A stretch of 26,968 nt of DNA from a virus. The position numbers and the translations under genes are program-made. Position 1 is the stretch's first letter, and every line of letters starts with the position of its first letter. The DNA lies in IMG/VR virus record IMGVR_UViG_3300048837_000891, positions 1 to 26,968 of that record; one strand, given 5' to 3'. Positions 4,949-12,350 of the stretch are shown in pieces. Under the pieces are notes generated by a model. The model did no database searches. It was not told the DNA's origin and was given only the letters and a program-made list of their open reading frames with translations.

Positions 4949-5362
4949 CTACGCCACCCGCACTTCAATCTGACGCCCCAGTGCACGAGCGGCAGCTTCG
5001 ATCTGGTCGAAGCGCGACGCATGGTTGAGATCGAACAGCCGATCCACCTGCGGCAGATGCCAACCCAGACGGCGGGCAAGGTCGGTCTTGCGCAAGCCCT
5101 GATCGGTCATGGCCTGATACACGCCCAGCTTGCCACACTCAAGGGCAGAAGGGCGCACCGTCGGGCGACCATCGGCAGCCGATGGCACGGGCAAGGGCGC
5201 ACGGGCATCGACATAAAAAGACAAGGCAGTCTCCAGCGCATCGACGGCCTGCAAAAGCGCCTCATCGTCATCCGCGCCGAAGGTGATCGCCTCCGGCACA
5301 TCGGGAAACGTCACCAACACGGTGCCGTTGTCCGGGGTCAGGGTCACAGGGTAATCGAACAT
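4949..5362 (-). CDS. hicB: HicB-type antitoxin with HTH domain
   Basis: A 137-residue protein in two parts. Residues 1-55 form the HicB partial-RNase-H fold (MFDYPVTLTPDNGTVLVTFPDVPEAITFG..DEAL), which masks HicA. The C-terminal half carries an Xre-like helix-turn-helix (GLRKTDLARRLGWHLPQVDRLFD) for operator binding. The start at 5362 sits behind a near-perfect AAGGAGG site, 9 bp after the hicA stop. The pair runs opposite to the surrounding early genes. This HicB differs from the ribbon-helix-helix type at 11943. Confidence 0.92.
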   Translation of the reverse strand: MFDYPVTLTPDNGTVLVTFPDVPEAITFGADDDEALLQAVDALETALSFYVDARAPLPVPSAADGRPTVRPSALECGKLGVYQAMTDQGLRKTDLARRLGWHLPQVDRLFDLNHASRFDQIEAAARALGRQIEVRVA

Positions 5363-5371
5363 GATGCCTCC

Positions 5372-5551
5372 TTATTTCAAGCCAAGCTGACGTTTGATGG
5401 CGGCCTCCAGCCCCTTGCCGAGCTCGGCAGTGCCGTGCATGGGCAGCGTGGACTGCTTGCCATTCAGAAAAACTTTCAGATGCGAACCCTTTCCCGCTGC
5501 GAAGGTCGCGCCTTGCTGTTCGAGCCATTTCTTCATCTGTTTCGAGTTCAT
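5372..5551 (-). CDS. hicA: HicA-type mRNA interferase toxin
   Basis: The 59-residue product begins MNSKQMKKWLEQQGATF and has the HicA dsRBD-like fold pattern, with GSH at residues 22-24 where His24 is the catalytic residue of the family. HicA cleaves mRNA/tmRNA in the absence of HicB. I took the ATG at 5551 because it gives the standard length and the promoter lies immediately upstream. A longer open frame runs to 5830 but has no HicA-like sequence. It is followed after 9 bp by hicB. Confidence 0.92.
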   Translation of the reverse strand: MNSKQMKKWLEQQGATFAAGKGSHLKVFLNGKQSTLPMHGTAELGKGLEAAIKRQLGLK

Positions 5552-5558
5552 GAAACGA

Positions 5559-5587
5559 ATAGTAAACACTTCTGTTGTGTTTATCAA
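5559..5587 (-). promoter_or_regulatory. hicA: Promoter and likely operator of the first hicAB pair
   Basis: On the minus strand, TTGATA (5582-5587) and TACTAT (5559-5564) are separated by exactly 17 bp. The spacer and adjoining bases contain the inverted repeat AAACAC..GTGTTT (5564-5582) with a 7-bp centre. This is a well-placed binding site for the HicB helix-turn-helix, giving autoregulation. The -10 is only 7 bp from the hicA start codon, so the leader would be very short. Confidence 0.6.
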
Positions 5588-5637
5588 GAAAAACGCAACA
5601 CTGATGTTTTTTTGACTTCTCTCCAGGAGAGGCAGCA

Positions 5638-5802
5638 ATGAACGACGATTATGATGACAGGATAAATGATTACAACGAAAACACTTGTCTGGTCTGCGGT
5701 GACGACTATGGCGATATCGCTGACGAAGTGCTTGTCTGCGGGGCCTGCGAAGATTGCCGAGCAACGTATAGCGCCGAAGAAATACTGGATAAAATTTTTT
5801 GA
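5638..5802 (+). CDS. Small acidic zinc-ribbon-like protein (54 aa)
   Basis: The ATG at 5638 follows CAGGAGAGG, a good ribosome-binding site. The very acidic start (MNDDYDDRINDYNEN) is followed by CLVCG (C17, C20) and CGACEDC (C34, C37, C40). Two CxxC knuckles 14 residues apart suggest one bound zinc ion. It lies divergent from hicA and before the DUF4224 gene. Probable nucleic-acid or protein interaction module; exact role unknown. Confidence 0.65.
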   Translation: MNDDYDDRINDYNENTCLVCGDDYGDIADEVLVCGACEDCRATYSAEEILDKIF

Positions 5803-5830: not shown

Positions 5831-6061
5831 ATGTCAGCATTATTTTTAACCAAAGAAGAATTACAAGAGCTGACCGGGTACACACTGCTGTCAAAGCAAG
5901 CTGCGTGGCTGAAAAGCCACCGCTACATATTCGAGCTGGACAAGCGCTGCGCCCCTAAGGTGTTACGCTCGCACCTGATTGAGAAAATGACAAAATCAAC
6001 GGCACAAGTGACGGCGGCACCCAACTTCGAGGCGTTAAAACGTGGCAAAAAAACCGCCTAG
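5831..6061 (+). CDS. DUF4224 family protein (likely excision/integration accessory factor)
   Basis: A 76-residue protein with the DUF4224 pattern: LTKEELQELTGYTLLSKQAAWLKSH at residues 6-30, followed by a short basic wing. It starts behind TGAGGTAAAC at 5831 and overlaps the integrase start by 20 bp. DUF4224 genes are usually found directly upstream of phage tyrosine integrases, so a role as a small DNA-binding directionality factor is likely, though inferred from position. Confidence 0.8.
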   Translation: MSALFLTKEELQELTGYTLLSKQAAWLKSHRYIFELDKRCAPKVLRSHLIEKMTKSTAQVTAAPNFEALKRGKKTA

Positions 6062-7127
6062 ATTTGTCAAAAAGCGAAACACCTATTTTCACGTAGGCTA
6101 TAAGCGCGTCATTATCACCCTGCCCGGCGGACAGTCTAAGGTGATCATCAAACGCCCCTATACTTCGCTTGGCAATGACTTGCAGAAAGCCATCTTGAAG
6201 TGGGCGGAAGTCGAGGTCGATCTGACTGTTGAAGCCGACACATTTAACGCTTTGGCTGCGAAGTACAAGCAGGAAGTGCTAACGCAAAAGCGGCCGAACA
6301 CACAAGACATGCAAGGCCGCTTTATGAAAAAGCTTTGCGCCGTCTTCGGGCACATGCAGCTTAACGAAATCAAGCCGCCCCACATTGCTGAATATCTCGA
6401 TACCAGTGAATTCAAAATTACAGCAAACCGTGAAATACAACTGATGAGCGCGATGTATACAAAGGCCATTCGCTGGGGATGGTGCGAAACCAACCCAACA
6501 CAGAGCATCAAGAGAAACGAAGAGAAGCAACGAACCCGCTATATCACCGATGAAGAATTCATGATTTTACGGGCGGGAGCCGACGAAGAGCTGCTTTGCA
6601 TCATTGATATTGCTTACAGCACTGGATTGCGCATCAGCGATATTCGAAACATCCGAAGAAAGCGGCCAGACAAGGAAATCATGGAGTCCCGTGTAAAAAA
6701 GCAAGATATAGAATTCTCCTATCTTGATGGCGATTTGCTCTACTCCGAACACATCAAAACAGGAGCCAGGCAATACTTTTACCTGACCGGCTTCTTGCTG
6801 GATGCCGTAAACCGCGCCAAGGCAATGGAAAGAAAGGTATCTTCACCCTTTCTTTTCTGCACTCGCCAAGGAAAGCCTCACAGCAAATCAGGATTTGATT
6901 CCAAGTGGAAGCGATTCAGAGAGAAAGTAGGCTTGCTCGACATTCACTTTCATGACATCCGAGCCAAGGCCGGAACAGATGCAAAAATGATGGGCAAGAA
7001 TCACCAGGCACTACTCGGGCATACCGATATTTCACAGTCTGAAAAATACGTTAAAGCACGCATGATTGAGGAAATCGAACCGCTGGATTTTAATGATAAA
7101 TTGATGCTAAAAAGCGGTCGCGAATGA
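6042..7127 (+). CDS. int: Tyrosine-type site-specific integrase
   Basis: A 361-residue tyrosine recombinase: an N-terminal basic arm-binding region, a SAM-like core-binding domain (about 65-160) and a catalytic domain. Visible active-site residues are R197 (TGLRISD), K239 (HIKTGARQ), H304 and R307 (HFHDIR), H327 (LLGHTD) and the nucleophile Y336 (SEKYVKAR). The start is GTG at 6042 with GAGG nine bases upstream, inside the DUF4224 gene. A tRNA-Pro 3' fragment with flanking arm-type repeats lies about 170 bp downstream and is the expected recombination target. Confidence 0.95.
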   Translation: MAKKPPRFVKKRNTYFHVGYKRVIITLPGGQSKVIIKRPYTSLGNDLQKAILKWAEVEVDLTVEADTFNALAAKYKQEVLTQKRPNTQDMQGRFMKKLCAVFGHMQLNEIKPPHIAEYLDTSEFKITANREIQLMSAMYTKAIRWGWCETNPTQSIKRNEEKQRTRYITDEEFMILRAGADEELLCIIDIAYSTGLRISDIRNIRRKRPDKEIMESRVKKQDIEFSYLDGDLLYSEHIKTGARQYFYLTGFLLDAVNRAKAMERKVSSPFLFCTRQGKPHSKSGFDSKWKRFREKVGLLDIHFHDIRAKAGTDAKMMGKNHQALLGHTDISQSEKYVKARMIEEIEPLDFNDKLMLKSGRE

Positions 7128-7209: not shown

Positions 7210-7470
7210 TTGTAGAACGGGGCGCTTGTAGTGTAGAACCTTGAAAGCCGACTTAATTTTAAGTCATTGCAAAGCATTGAAATATATAACATAAATTGGT
7301 CGGGACGGCAGGATTTGAACCTGCGACCACATGCACCCCATGCATACCACCAAAGAATTATAACTCATTGTATACAATAAACATTTATTGGTCGGCGCTC
7401 TACAATGGCTATTTTTCACTCTCTTTATTTATCAACAAGTTATAGACATCTATTTTTGATTTGTAGAACG
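7210..7470. other. attP: Phage attachment site, attP layout
   Basis: The tRNA-Pro core (7297-7345) is flanked by repeated 10-bp sites: TTGTAGAACG at 7210-7219, GTGTAGAACC at 7231-7240, TTGTAGAGCG on the minus strand at 7396-7405 and TTGTAGAACG again at 7461-7470. These look like integrase arm-type sites in P and P' arms. Sites on both sides of a core that lacks the tRNA 5' half indicate an unrecombined phage site. ATTGGTCGG, the CCA end of the core, recurs at 7387-7395. The rest of 7128-7597 shows no convincing gene; a short open stretch without a start codon at about 7467-7646 may be a remnant. Confidence 0.7.
7297..7345 (-). tRNA. 3' fragment of tRNA-Pro(GGG), attachment core (not a functional tRNA)
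   Basis: Read on the minus strand, the fragment covers the anticodon loop ATGGGGT with anticodon GGG and the anticodon stem 3' side GCATG. It then has a five-base variable loop, the T stem-loop GCAGG-TTCAAAT-CCTGC, the acceptor 3' strand CGTCCCG, the discriminator A and an encoded CCA. The D-arm and acceptor 5' strand are absent to the right. Phages that integrate in tRNA genes carry exactly such a 3' copy so that the gene is restored on insertion. Confidence 0.85.
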
Positions 7471-7597: not shown

Positions 7598-7897
7598 TCA
7601 TGGTTGGGGGGACGCCGTGATATGCAGTTCAAGGCCAAGCGCATGAGTTACCTTGAGAACACTGGCAAAGCTCGGGTTGCCCTGCGGGGAAAGCGCCTTG
7701 TACAAGCCTTCTCTGGTCATGCCTGCCGCCTTCGCCAGTTGCGTCATGTTGCGGGCTCGGGCGATATCGGACAGTGCCGCACGGATGAGACTGCCGTCAC
7801 CGGAATCCGCTTCGGCGCAGGCATCCAGATACATGGCTTCTTCTTCGCGGGTTCCGAGGTAATCGGCGGCATCCCATCGGGTGAATTGTTCGGTCAT
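7598..7897 (-). CDS. HigA-like antitoxin (addiction-module antidote)
   Basis: A 99-residue protein ending in a helix-turn-helix of the Xre type (MTQLAKAAGMTREGLYKAL at about residues 51-69, then GNPSFASVLKVTHALGLEL). The N-terminal part (LGTREEEAMYLDACAEADSG) matches the small addiction-module antidote family paired with RelE-like killer proteins. It starts 3 bp after the toxin stop, the toxin-first order typical of HigBA-like modules. It neutralises the toxin and probably represses the operon. It lies just beyond the attP site. Confidence 0.88.
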   Translation of the reverse strand: MTEQFTRWDAADYLGTREEEAMYLDACAEADSGDGSLIRAALSDIARARNMTQLAKAAGMTREGLYKALSPQGNPSFASVLKVTHALGLELHITASPQP

Positions 7898-7900
7898 AGT

Positions 7901-8197
7901 TCAGGTACTCCACTCTTTGGCCAGTATTTGGGCGCGTTTAATGTCTTGTTGCTGGCTGGATTTGTCACCGCCGCACAGCATCACGATCAAGGACTTGCCT
8001 TCCTGGATGAAATAGAGCCGGTAGCCGGGGCCGTAAAAAATCCGCATTTCGGAAACGCCCTCCCCAACCGGTTCGACATCGCCCAGATTGCCCAGCGAAG
8101 CTTTTTTCAGCCGGGCATTGATCCGGCTCACGGCCATTCTGTCGCGCAGGTTGCCAAGCCAGTGTTTAAACGTGTCGCTTGCGATGATTTCATACAT
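7901..8197 (-). CDS. RelE/HigB-type toxin (addiction-module killer protein)
   Basis: Starting at the ATG at 8197, the product is 98 residues (MYEIIASDTFKHWLGNLRD...). It has the RelE/ParE fold pattern: helix with RMAVSRINARLKKA, then strands VSEMRIFYGPGYRLYFIQ and LIVMLCGGDKSSQQQDIKRA. The C-terminal GGDKSSQ..DI motif is typical of this killer-protein subfamily, which cuts mRNA on the ribosome. A longer in-frame extension up to 8416 runs into the non-coding leader and was not used. A plausible -10 (TACAAT) lies about 10 bp upstream of the start. Confidence 0.88.
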   Translation of the reverse strand: MYEIIASDTFKHWLGNLRDRMAVSRINARLKKASLGNLGDVEPVGEGVSEMRIFYGPGYRLYFIQEGKSLIVMLCGGDKSSQQQDIKRAQILAKEWST

Positions 8198-8290
8198 GCC
8201 GTAATTGTAAACTGTGGTACACACATTAGCAAACCGCGAAGTTTGACAAACTCCCCCCCACCGCGTTAGGCTGTCCGAACTGAAACTAAA

Positions 8291-8374
8291 TGCGGACAAC
8301 CGCACCCGACAGCCTCGCGGTTTTTTTGTGCCTGAAAAAGGCAATCCAGCCAGTTTATGGTCGGGTCGAGAGGC
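8291..8374 (+). ncRNA. C4-like antisense RNA / structured leader of the antirepressor gene
   Basis: Two small perfect hairpins (TGCGG-ACAA-CCGCA at 8291-8304; TGCCT-GAAAA-AGGCA at 8329-8343) flank CCCGACAGCCTC and a T7 tract. Downstream, GTCGGG (8360-8365) complements CCCGAC (8305-8310), and GAGGC (8370-8374) complements GCCTC (8312-8316). The order of the segments prevents both pairings in one simple hairpin. TCGGGTC (8361-8367) also complements GACCCGA (8432-8438), closer to the antirepressor start. C4 RNA of phages P1/P7 works this way upstream of an antirepressor. I recognise the layout, not a verified family match. Confidence 0.45.
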
Positions 8375-8439
8375 GTAATACAATACCGCATGTCGGAAAT
8401 ATGCCCGGAGCTTCATTTAGGCTTCAGTTGAGACCCGAT

Positions 8440-8453
8440 TTATCCCCGGATAA
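8440..8453 (+). promoter_or_regulatory. Palindromic hairpin ahead of the antirepressor start
   Basis: TTATCC-CC-GGATAA is a perfect inverted repeat 33 bp before the antirepressor start codon, immediately after the GACCCGA segment that can pair with the leader RNA. It could be an operator or part of the leader fold. The 8198-8486 interval holds only these elements and the likely promoter of the toxin operon. Confidence 0.4.
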
Positions 8454-8486: not shown

Positions 8487-9488
8487 ATGTCAAACGTAAT
8501 CCCGTTCAAATTCAAAACCACCGAAGTAAGAACTCTCGAAATCAATGATCTGATCTGGTTCGTTGCAAGCGATGTTGCCAAAGCGCTGGAATATTCGGCA
8601 GCCAAAGACATGACCCGCATGCTGGATGAAGATGAAAGGGGTGGGCATATTGTGCCCACCCCCTCCGGTGATCAGGAAATGACCATCATCAACGAATCCG
8701 GCTTGTACCATGCCATCCTGAAAAGCCGCAAGCCCGAAGCGCAACCTTTCCGCAAGTGGATCACTACCGAGGTGTTACCGGCCATTCGCAAAACCGGCCG
8801 GTATGATGCGACTGCCGAACCCAAAGCCGAACCCAAACCCAAAACCAAACCCAAGGCACTGCCCAACGGCCTGACTGTTGACCAGCAAGACGCTATCAAA
8901 TCGCTGGTTAAGTCCCGAGTGTCATCGCTGCCGCAAGACAAGCAAGCGAAGGCGGCGATTACCTGCTGGTCGGCATTGAAATCAAAGTTCGGCAAATCCT
9001 ATAAAGAGATTGAGCCGGAACAGTTCACCGATGCGGTTAGCCTGATCGCACGGGTGGTGCTCGAAGGCGATTACATTCCCGCTGGCGAGACCCCGGCGCA
9101 ACCCAAGCCAGCGGTACAGACCGTCACGGCTACCCAGGTGCAGCAAATCCGTGAGCGTTTGCGTTTTGCCTTCGCCGGGTGGGTGTTCTCGCGGGATGAA
9201 TCGCAAAAGTTGTTGAATCGCATCCGGGCAGAAAACAACATCGAGCAGATTGAGGATTTGCCCGCCGACCGACTGCTGCCGGTGTTGGAGCTGATCGAAG
9301 TGGCCAAAAAAACCAATCTACAGTTTAATGGGTTGATGGTCGATTTGAAAAACTGGTACCTGAAAGAGTACATTGGTGCCGGTGCGCCCTGGACACCGTC
9401 CTTAAAGCGTAAGCTGCGTGAGCGTTTCGGCGAGGAGTTGCCAGAGCGCCCCAACTGGCGCGAAATCGAATCGCGACTGAGTGCCTAA
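8487..9488 (+). CDS. BRO-family phage antirepressor
   Basis: A 333-residue protein (ATG at 8487 after GGAAA; an ATG 12 bp earlier is less well placed). Residues 1-104 are a BRO-N domain: LIWFVASDVAKALEY, TRMLDEDERGG, INESGLYHAILKSRK and FRKWITTEVLPAIRKTGRY. A Pro/Lys/Glu-rich linker (AEPKAEPKPKTKPK) leads to helical domains resembling ORF6C-like antirepressor C-termini. Such proteins bind DNA or the phage repressor to trigger lytic growth. The C4-like leader fits control by an antisense RNA. The cognate repressor is not visible in the window. Confidence 0.88.
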   Translation: MSNVIPFKFKTTEVRTLEINDLIWFVASDVAKALEYSAAKDMTRMLDEDERGGHIVPTPSGDQEMTIINESGLYHAILKSRKPEAQPFRKWITTEVLPAIRKTGRYDATAEPKAEPKPKTKPKALPNGLTVDQQDAIKSLVKSRVSSLPQDKQAKAAITCWSALKSKFGKSYKEIEPEQFTDAVSLIARVVLEGDYIPAGETPAQPKPAVQTVTATQVQQIRERLRFAFAGWVFSRDESQKLLNRIRAENNIEQIEDLPADRLLPVLELIEVAKKTNLQFNGLMVDLKNWYLKEYIGAGAPWTPSLKRKLRERFGEELPERPNWREIESRLSA

Positions 9489-9528
9489 GAAGGTAGTATG
9501 CGCAAAACAAATTCTGGAGGATAAGATT

Positions 9529-10488
9529 GTGTCAAATTTATCATGCGTTGAAATTTGCGCAGGAGCTGGCGGTCAGGCGCTGGGGCTTGAAAATGCCGGT
9601 TTCGATGCCCATGCACTGGTTGAAATTGATGACCGTTGTTGTGAGACTTTGCGATTCAACCGCCCAAACTGGAATGTCATTGAAGGTGATGTTAAAAACT
9701 TCAGTGGTAAGCCATACAAGGGCGTAGATTTGCTGGCCGGTGGTGTGCCTTGCCCTCCGTTTTCGAAAGCTGGCAAGCAGCTGGGTAAGGATGACGAAAG
9801 AGACCTTTTCCCGGAAGCATTGCGACTTGTAGACGAAATCCGTCCCAAAGCGGTAATGCTGGAAAATGTGCGAGGTTTTCTTGATGCAGTGTTTGAGGAC
9901 TATCGTCTAAAGCTTAAGCGTGAGCTTCAACTAATGGGTTATGTTGTGGACTGGCGTTTACTTAATGCTTCAGATTTCGGTGTTTCACAGTTACGCCCCC
10001 GCGTGGTGATCATAGCTATAAAGAAAGACCTTGCCGGAAACTTCCAGTGGTGTACACCTCTTGACCATAATCCCCCAACGGTGGGTGAGCTATTGCTGGA
10101 CAAGATGAAAGAAAATGGTTGGCGCGGTGCAAACAAATGGGCAAAGCAGGCTGATGATATTGCACCTACAATTGTCGGTGGTTCGAAAAAGCACGGCGGC
10201 CCCGACTTAGGGCCGACACGAGCTAAAAACGCTTGGGCGTCACTTGGTGTAAACGGAATGACAATTGCGGAAGAAGCCCCCGAACGTGATTTTGTGGGTA
10301 TGCCTCGCCTTACTGTTGACATGGTTGCTCGTATCCAGGGCTTCCCGGATGACTGGAAATTTTTAGGTCGAAAGACTCCGGCATATAGACAAGTTGGCAA
10401 TGCCTTTCCTCCACCAGTAGCGGAAGCGGTAGCAAAACAAATTCAAAGCTGCTTAACAGCTAAAAAGATTTATTCAGTTGCAGTCTAG
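9529..10488 (+). CDS. DNA (cytosine-5) methyltransferase, type II R-M
   Basis: A 319-residue m5C methyltransferase. Motif I is VEICAGAGGQALGLE, motif IV GGVPCPPFSKAG with the catalytic Cys75, motif VI LENVRGF (residues 111-117), motif VIII QLRPR (154-158), and motifs IX/X RIQGFPDDW and QVGNAFPPPVAEAV. The target-recognition region between VIII and IX is short, about 100 residues, so one recognition sequence is expected; it cannot be read from the sequence. The GTG start at 9529 has GGAGG eight bases upstream; an earlier GTG (9481) overlaps the antirepressor. It is paired with the HNH nuclease 12 bp downstream. Confidence 0.95.
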   Translation: MSNLSCVEICAGAGGQALGLENAGFDAHALVEIDDRCCETLRFNRPNWNVIEGDVKNFSGKPYKGVDLLAGGVPCPPFSKAGKQLGKDDERDLFPEALRLVDEIRPKAVMLENVRGFLDAVFEDYRLKLKRELQLMGYVVDWRLLNASDFGVSQLRPRVVIIAIKKDLAGNFQWCTPLDHNPPTVGELLLDKMKENGWRGANKWAKQADDIAPTIVGGSKKHGGPDLGPTRAKNAWASLGVNGMTIAEEAPERDFVGMPRLTVDMVARIQGFPDDWKFLGRKTPAYRQVGNAFPPPVAEAVAKQIQSCLTAKKIYSVAV

Positions 10489-10500
10489 GGATAACAATAA

Positions 10501-11094
10501 ATGGGGAAAAAACCGGGGGCACGGGCAAGACTAAGAGAGCATTTTTTAGCTAATATTGGACGAGTTATGTTTTCCGATGAGCTAAGGGAAGTGTCAGGCG
10601 GCATTAGCGAGTGGGCGCGTAGAGTGCGAGAATTACGCACTGAGGAAGGATATCAAATTCTCACACACAATGACCGAAGCGAACTAAAGCCCGGTCAATA
10701 CCTGTTAGAAAACTCGAAACCAGAACCAGCCTTTGAACGTGGAATTTCGAAAGAAACACGCGCTTATGTTCTTGATCGAAACGGCTTTACTTGCCAAATG
10801 TGTGGAGCTGTGGCTGGCGAGTCACATCCTTATGACCCAACAAGAAAAACACGTTTACACATTGGTCATATAGTCGATAAATCGCAAGGCGGCGACGATG
10901 ATCCAAGTAACTTACGGGCGCTTTGTTCAGTCTGCAACGAGGGAGCATCAAATTTAACTCTTGAGCGTCCTTCTGTTCAAAAGTTAATGATCCAGGTTAG
11001 ACGTGCAAAAGGTGGTGATCAAATTGAACTACTTAAGTGGCTAATCGGAAAATATCCAAAACAAGCAAAAGCGATTATTGATCCTGTTTTATAA
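10501..11094 (+). CDS. HNH restriction endonuclease, partner of the m5C methyltransferase
   Basis: The 197-residue protein has an N-terminal winged-helix-like part (LREHFLANIGRVMFSDELRE..SEWARRVRELR) for DNA contact. A C-terminal HNH nuclease follows: C98/C101 and C142/C145 form the structural zinc site and HIGH (H120, H123) the catalytic motif, with NLRALCSVCN completing the fold. The ATG at 10501 follows AGGGATAA. Its position directly after the methyltransferase indicates a type II restriction-modification pair. The coding sequence looks more A/T-rich than the neighbouring phage genes, suggesting recent acquisition. It probably protects the lysogen against other phages. Confidence 0.88.
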   Translation: MGKKPGARARLREHFLANIGRVMFSDELREVSGGISEWARRVRELRTEEGYQILTHNDRSELKPGQYLLENSKPEPAFERGISKETRAYVLDRNGFTCQMCGAVAGESHPYDPTRKTRLHIGHIVDKSQGGDDDPSNLRALCSVCNEGASNLTLERPSVQKLMIQVRRAKGGDQIELLKWLIGKYPKQAKAIIDPVL

Positions 11095-11942: not shown

Positions 11943-12350
11943 ATGCTGTATACAGTTATTATAGAAGTCGGCGACGATGACACAGCGTGGGGTGTGGAAG
12001 TGCCGGATATTCCTGGCTGTTATTCTGCCGGGGATACTCTGGATGAGGCTATTGCCAATGCAAAAGCGGCTATCGAAGGTCACCTTGAGGTGTTGGCTGA
12101 TGGCGGCGAGCAGATGCCACTACCAGCTCCCGCCAGGGCGCATATTACAGACATCGACTTTCACACGCACTTGATTGCTGTTATTGACGTTGATATCACA
12201 CCATTTTTAGGTAAGTCACAAAAGATAAACGTGACGCTACCCGATCTTTTGTTGCGAAAAATCGATGATTATGTAGACAAAAAACCAAAGGAATACAAGA
12301 ACCGATCCTATTTTTTACAGAAAGCCGCGTTGATCGCGCTTGATGGCTGA
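11943..12350 (+). CDS. hicB: HicB-type antitoxin with ribbon-helix-helix end (second copy)
   Basis: A 135-residue HicB. The N-terminal partial-RNase-H fold is clear (YTVIIEVGDDDTAWGVEVPDIPGCYSAGDTLDEAI). The C-terminal part (KINVTLPDLLLRKIDDYVD..YKNRSYFLQKAAL) reads as a ribbon-helix-helix DNA-binding domain, unlike the helix-turn-helix HicB at 4949. TTGAGG precedes the ATG by nine bases. It neutralises HicA and probably represses the promoter at 11677. It ends 4 bp before the stop of the converging tail gene. Confidence 0.92.
   Translation: MLYTVIIEVGDDDTAWGVEVPDIPGCYSAGDTLDEAIANAKAAIEGHLEVLADGGEQMPLPAPARAHITDIDFHTHLIAVIDVDITPFLGKSQKINVTLPDLLLRKIDDYVDKKPKEYKNRSYFLQKAALIALDG

Follow-up and report, generated by a model that had tools for sequence, protein, structure and literature searches.

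The closest described systems are lambda-type attP sites at the anticodon loops of tRNA genes (PMC4383910, PMC8371274), where the crossover made by the anticodon class of integrases falls in the loop itself (sublocation class A in PMC4383910 and PMC8371274). The locus described here, in a window of 26,968 bases which makes up the whole IMG/VR record IMGVR_UViG_3300048837_000891, has the same order of excisionase gene, integrase gene and attP, and its core likewise equals the 3' part of a tRNA gene. The overlap in the anticodon loop, the arms on both sides of the core and the restoration of the tRNA are also the same as in these systems, as far as they can be read from the DNA sequence here. 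Positions 7210 to 7470 of the window very probably hold a complete lambda-type attP of a temperate tailed phage, in a genome copy which is not integrated. This reading is based on observed features, namely the sequence, the gene neighbours, the conserved arms and the presence of tRNA-Pro(GGG) sequence beside close relatives of the integrase. The type of site is ordinary and well known; the phage itself is new. The best named phage relatives of its integrase are those of the Pseudomonas phages F10 and Ostro, with an identity of only 27–28%.

The record is assigned to the topology class linear. The right edge of the window falls inside the major head gene, and the record is an incomplete part of a tailed phage. 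The features of the window are the following.

Left of attP: early genes and, on the minus strand, hicA/hicB-like genes
5831–6061, plus strand: excisionase (xis), DUF4224-type (phrog_4764 excisionase, E 6e-14; PF13986)
6042–7127, plus strand: tyrosine integrase (int), transcribed towards attP (PF00589, E 1e-16; PF22022)
7211–7217, plus strand: putative P-arm site 1, TGTAGAA, exact 7-mer
7232–7238, plus strand: putative P-arm site 2, TGTAGAA, 21 bp after site 1
7297–7345, minus strand: attP core, 3' part of tRNA-Pro(GGG) from the anticodon stem to CCA
7335–7341, minus strand: predicted overlap of 7 bp, anticodon loop ATGGGGT, near the divergence point of lone cores
7398–7404, minus strand: putative P'-arm site 1, inverted CTCTACA, 1 mismatch
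7430–7442, plus strand: candidate IHF site TATCAACAAGTTA, which fits the consensus WATCAANNNNTTR
7462–7468, plus strand: putative P'-arm site 2, TGTAGAA
Right of attP: addiction-type antitoxin with a presumed toxin partner, BRO-N, C5 cytosine methylase
Also right of attP: HNH, a DUF4124 gene, a HicB-like gene
12.6 kb to the window end, minus strand: tail and head genes

The distance from int to the core is 170 bp. Several neighbouring genes resemble toxin-antitoxin systems. These are a dnstrm_HI1420 antitoxin with its presumed toxin partner at 7598–8416 (minus strand), the latter giving no match in Pfam, a hicA/hicB-like pair at 4949–5640 (minus strand) and a HicB-like gene at 11943–12350 (plus strand). 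A C5 cytosine methylase gene followed by an HNH nuclease gene lies beside attP at 9481–11094 (plus strand), possibly as a pair of cargo genes for restriction-modification or anti-restriction. Just ahead of the BRO-N gene, positions 8359–8448 (plus strand) match sRNA-Xcc1 (RF02221) with 40.4 bits, which is under the gathering score of 53, and an E value of 5e-4, a weak but credible match. As far as a reference given in PMC12444791 indicates, this family is integron-encoded and moved by a transposon or plasmid; a copy on a phage, if true, would be an additional route of spread.

On the minus strand the core reads ATGC-ATGGGGT-GCATG-TGGTC-GCAGG-TTCAAAT-CCTGC-CGTCCCG-A-CCA. It covers positions 28 to CCA of tRNA-Pro(GGG); the anticodon loop, the T-arm and the 3' strand of the acceptor are intact, and base 7346 contributes a T27-G43 wobble. 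The preliminary description had taken the 49-bp core as the 3' part of a tRNA-Pro gene with CCA and lacking the 5' half, which agrees both with our reading of the sequence and with ARAGORN, which found no complete tRNA in the window. A second copy of the core is absent from the window as well. A host tRNA-Pro(GGG) equal to 7297–7345, suggested at that stage as a check, did not turn up, as the exact core (queries of 50 and 47 bp) matched nothing in IMG/VR or in the contigs of GTDB r220 (84,980 genomes). When positions 39–44, the six bases that follow the anticodon loop, were left free, the relaxed pattern matched at least 117 genome stretches and, in IMG/VR, one further record. The genome stretches are largely gammaproteobacterial tRNA-Pro(GGG) genes, and since many of them are full length the tRNA identity of the core is shown independently. 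About a dozen of them consist of a lone 3' fragment in another element, and these fragments, like the G357 core, diverge from the full tRNA no more than a few bases from the 5' edge of the loop. This divergence suggests 7335–7341 as the overlap, with the inverted halves of the anticodon stem flanking it as probable core-type sites. A search of plasmids with the core yielded only short matches, apparently of tRNA sequence. A tmRNA hit on the core (Rfam, 11 bits, E 0.79) was discarded as a chance match due to the T-arm which both have in common. An imperfect 16-bp direct repeat, AACATNNATTGGTCGG, occurs at 7288–7303 and 7380–7395, one copy overlapping the CCA end of the core; it is possibly due to chance and possibly a second protein site.

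Phages carry tRNA genes of their own, and the core could be such a gene, decayed to its 3' half and without a role in integration. Against this, a remnant of the D-arm is not visible, the end of the fragment coincides with the end of integration fragments in other elements, and xis, int and the arms form the surroundings expected of an attP, which makes decay of a phage-borne tRNA hardly credible.

Four 10-mer sites surround the core, exact at 7210–7219 (plus strand) and 7461–7470 (plus strand), with one mismatch at 7396–7405 (minus strand) and with two mismatches, yet an exact TGTAGAA, at 7231–7240 (plus strand). Up to two mismatches, the 10-mer is no commoner in the whole window than expected by chance (16 matches versus 19 expected), and 4 of the 16 cluster within 261 bp. 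The conserved unit of the arms is the 7-mer TGTAGAA, which occurs exactly four times in the window, three of these at attP; when the 420-bp region was shuffled 500 times, this number was never equalled. The putative arm sites are taken as real. Their earlier portrayal as four near-identical sites was right as to the positions, at which TGTAGAA is clustered, and slightly generous as to the likeness. One of them is inverted, and this proves informative. In the P' arm an inverted copy (CTCTACA, one mismatch to TTCTACA) is followed by a direct one (TGTAGAA) at a distance of 64 bp from start to start.

Relatives of the integrase, with identities of 31–48%, made it possible to compare this arrangement. 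Scans of viral sequences with the integrase and with a tail protein as single proteins yielded no relatives, and a viral search with an alignment as query found 11 integrase relatives. The five best of these in IMG/VR (L154 to L158, 31–39% integrase identity) all have contiguous, unsplit arm arrays, with inverted-then-direct P' pairs 62, 64, 63, 63, and 64 bp apart from start to start, respectively, one mismatch occurring in L154. The arm sites of L157 sit further from int, the spacing still being that of the other relatives. Such a P' pair arose in 0 to 2 of 2000 dinucleotide shuffles, run on the region of the window and on those of four relatives. The cores of all five differ from tRNA-Pro. 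As the arms are kept while the cores differ, the arm code seems to go with the integrase group rather than with the core. Three of the relatives, L156, L157 and, less exactly, L158, have in common a core-like sequence which is not tRNA, GATAATCCTACTTTAGCTGAGC...ATTGACCAGAA, about 50–75 bp before the P' pair.

The integrase was also searched for in 369 sampled genomes of the class. Its best match there, L122 with 40% identity, adjoins a full tRNA-Pro(GGG) gene, and the host genes nearby are pheT, merR and one of the IHF/HU type. A second relative, L126, has 47–48% identity over the C-terminal third of the integrase and adjoins a lone tRNA-Pro(GGG) core. Between the loop and CCA this core equals the tRNA-Pro(GGG) found elsewhere in its own genome, and just upstream of the loop the two differ. 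Both have two direct copies of TGTAGAA between int and the core, 19 and 18 bp apart, respectively. More distant integrases which the search also yielded have tRNA-Thr, -Arg, -Lys, or -Asn genes nearby. The position of L122 and L126 beside tRNA-Pro(GGG) supports a link of this branch of integrases to that target. Together with the arms conserved in the five viral relatives, the finding of the two closest genomic relatives at the same tRNA speaks for the identity as attP proposed in the preliminary description. In the integrase tree the window sequence was placed with weak support.

Other elements commonly have lone 3' fragments of tRNA-Pro at their attR sites, and the fragment in the window might be one of these, a displaced attR or relic of another element, with the integrase acting elsewhere. 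This is very improbable, as arm sites lie on both sides of the core, the nearest integrases also have this tRNA sequence and these paired repeats beside them, and neither side is flanked by host DNA. Fifteen records with full or lone tRNA-Pro cores yielded no relative of the window integrase at E <= 1e-15, in a search run with no positive control, and for this reason the lone cores in these records probably belong to other integrases. What integration at this target looks like is seen in IMG/VR record 3300032373_000038, an unrelated 42-kb prophage with a full tRNA-Pro(GGG) near one end and a lone core beside tail genes, a pair of sites which is the attL/attR pattern of an integrated phage. It resembles the window in the tRNA target and in the lone core beside tail genes. 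It differs in being integrated with its site split, whereas the lone core of the window joins the integrase side to the cargo and tail side, the arrangement required of a copy that is not integrated. At E <= 1e-15 no relative of the window integrase was detected in this prophage.

That the integrase lies on one side of the site and late and cargo genes on the other had already been described, and the annotation agrees: xis and the PF00589 integrase gene are to the left, cargo, tail and head genes to the right, and the site between them is unsplit. With phage genes on both sides, the non-integrated state contained in the earlier reading as an excised, circular or tandem phage is upheld. Circularity is not, the record being linear and a terminal repeat, looked for as a sign of a circle, being absent from the window. 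Since attP is always intact in linear virion DNA and in replicating concatemers, such DNA explains the window equally well. Two prophages in tandem in one tRNA-Pro gene would present an internal junction identical in look to attP, which a single contig cannot separate from it, and prophages arrayed in this way at tRNA genes have been described (Islander, PMC4383910). The window shows neither a host flank nor a second int however, and the unsplit arm arrays in five of five viral relatives suit free phage genomes better, which renders a tandem junction quite unlikely. An integrated copy of this phage was not found in the databases searched.

For the attP of a free phage genome, we infer from its anatomy and from what biochemistry has shown for lambda-type integrases that the integrase and excisionase would assemble on the TGTAGAA sites, two of which are direct in the P arm and two form the inverted pair in the P' arm. 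Strand exchange would take place across the 7-bp loop, ATGGGGT, in the tRNA-Pro(GGG) gene of a gammaproteobacterium, with the inverted stem halves serving as the two core-type sites. The 5' half of the host tRNA (...GCGCACATGC) would be joined to the 3' half from the phage, restoring the tRNA beside int (attL), and the displaced 3' fragment of the host would end up at the cargo and tail end (attR). As the phage brings the 3' half, the tRNA would stay intact in lysogeny. Bending of the DNA by IHF may contribute. The candidate site at 7430–7442 is the sole match to the IHF consensus on the plus strand of the window, two more being found on the minus strand. It separates the two P' sites instead of lying between core and arm, the strict consensus had no match in the regions of the relatives, and the site is suggestive only.

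The anticodon stem gives some indication of the host. Base 42 of the phage is T, and full pairing of the stem would thus need an A at position 28 of the host, or a G in a wobble pair. Genes for tRNA-Pro(GGG) with an ATGC/GCATG stem occur in 5 of the 369 sampled genomes, and the nearest tRNA-Pro(GGG), compared from the loop to CCA, is one or two bases off in two of the orders searched. The rarity of the stem and the distance of these nearest tRNAs suggest that the host is probably an unsampled gammaproteobacterium. Searches for the integrase or the host tRNA at the level of orders, with few genomes each, gave no exact match.

In comparison with the described lambda-type attP sites, the TGTAGAA motif and the inverted P' pair at 62–64 bp are a feature of the integrase group of the window, and a brief literature search found no published description of either. 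That the group keeps these arms and switches its core between tRNA-Pro(GGG) and other targets, with recognition of the arms and choice of the target evolving as separate modules, has in our view an even chance of being correct. For an uncultivated phage the likely integration target and a temperate life style are now fixed, and the likely host is narrowed to bacteria with a CATGC/GCATG anticodon stem in their tRNA-Pro(GGG). The TGTAGAA signature could be used to find attP in related phages, even where the core is not derived from a tRNA.
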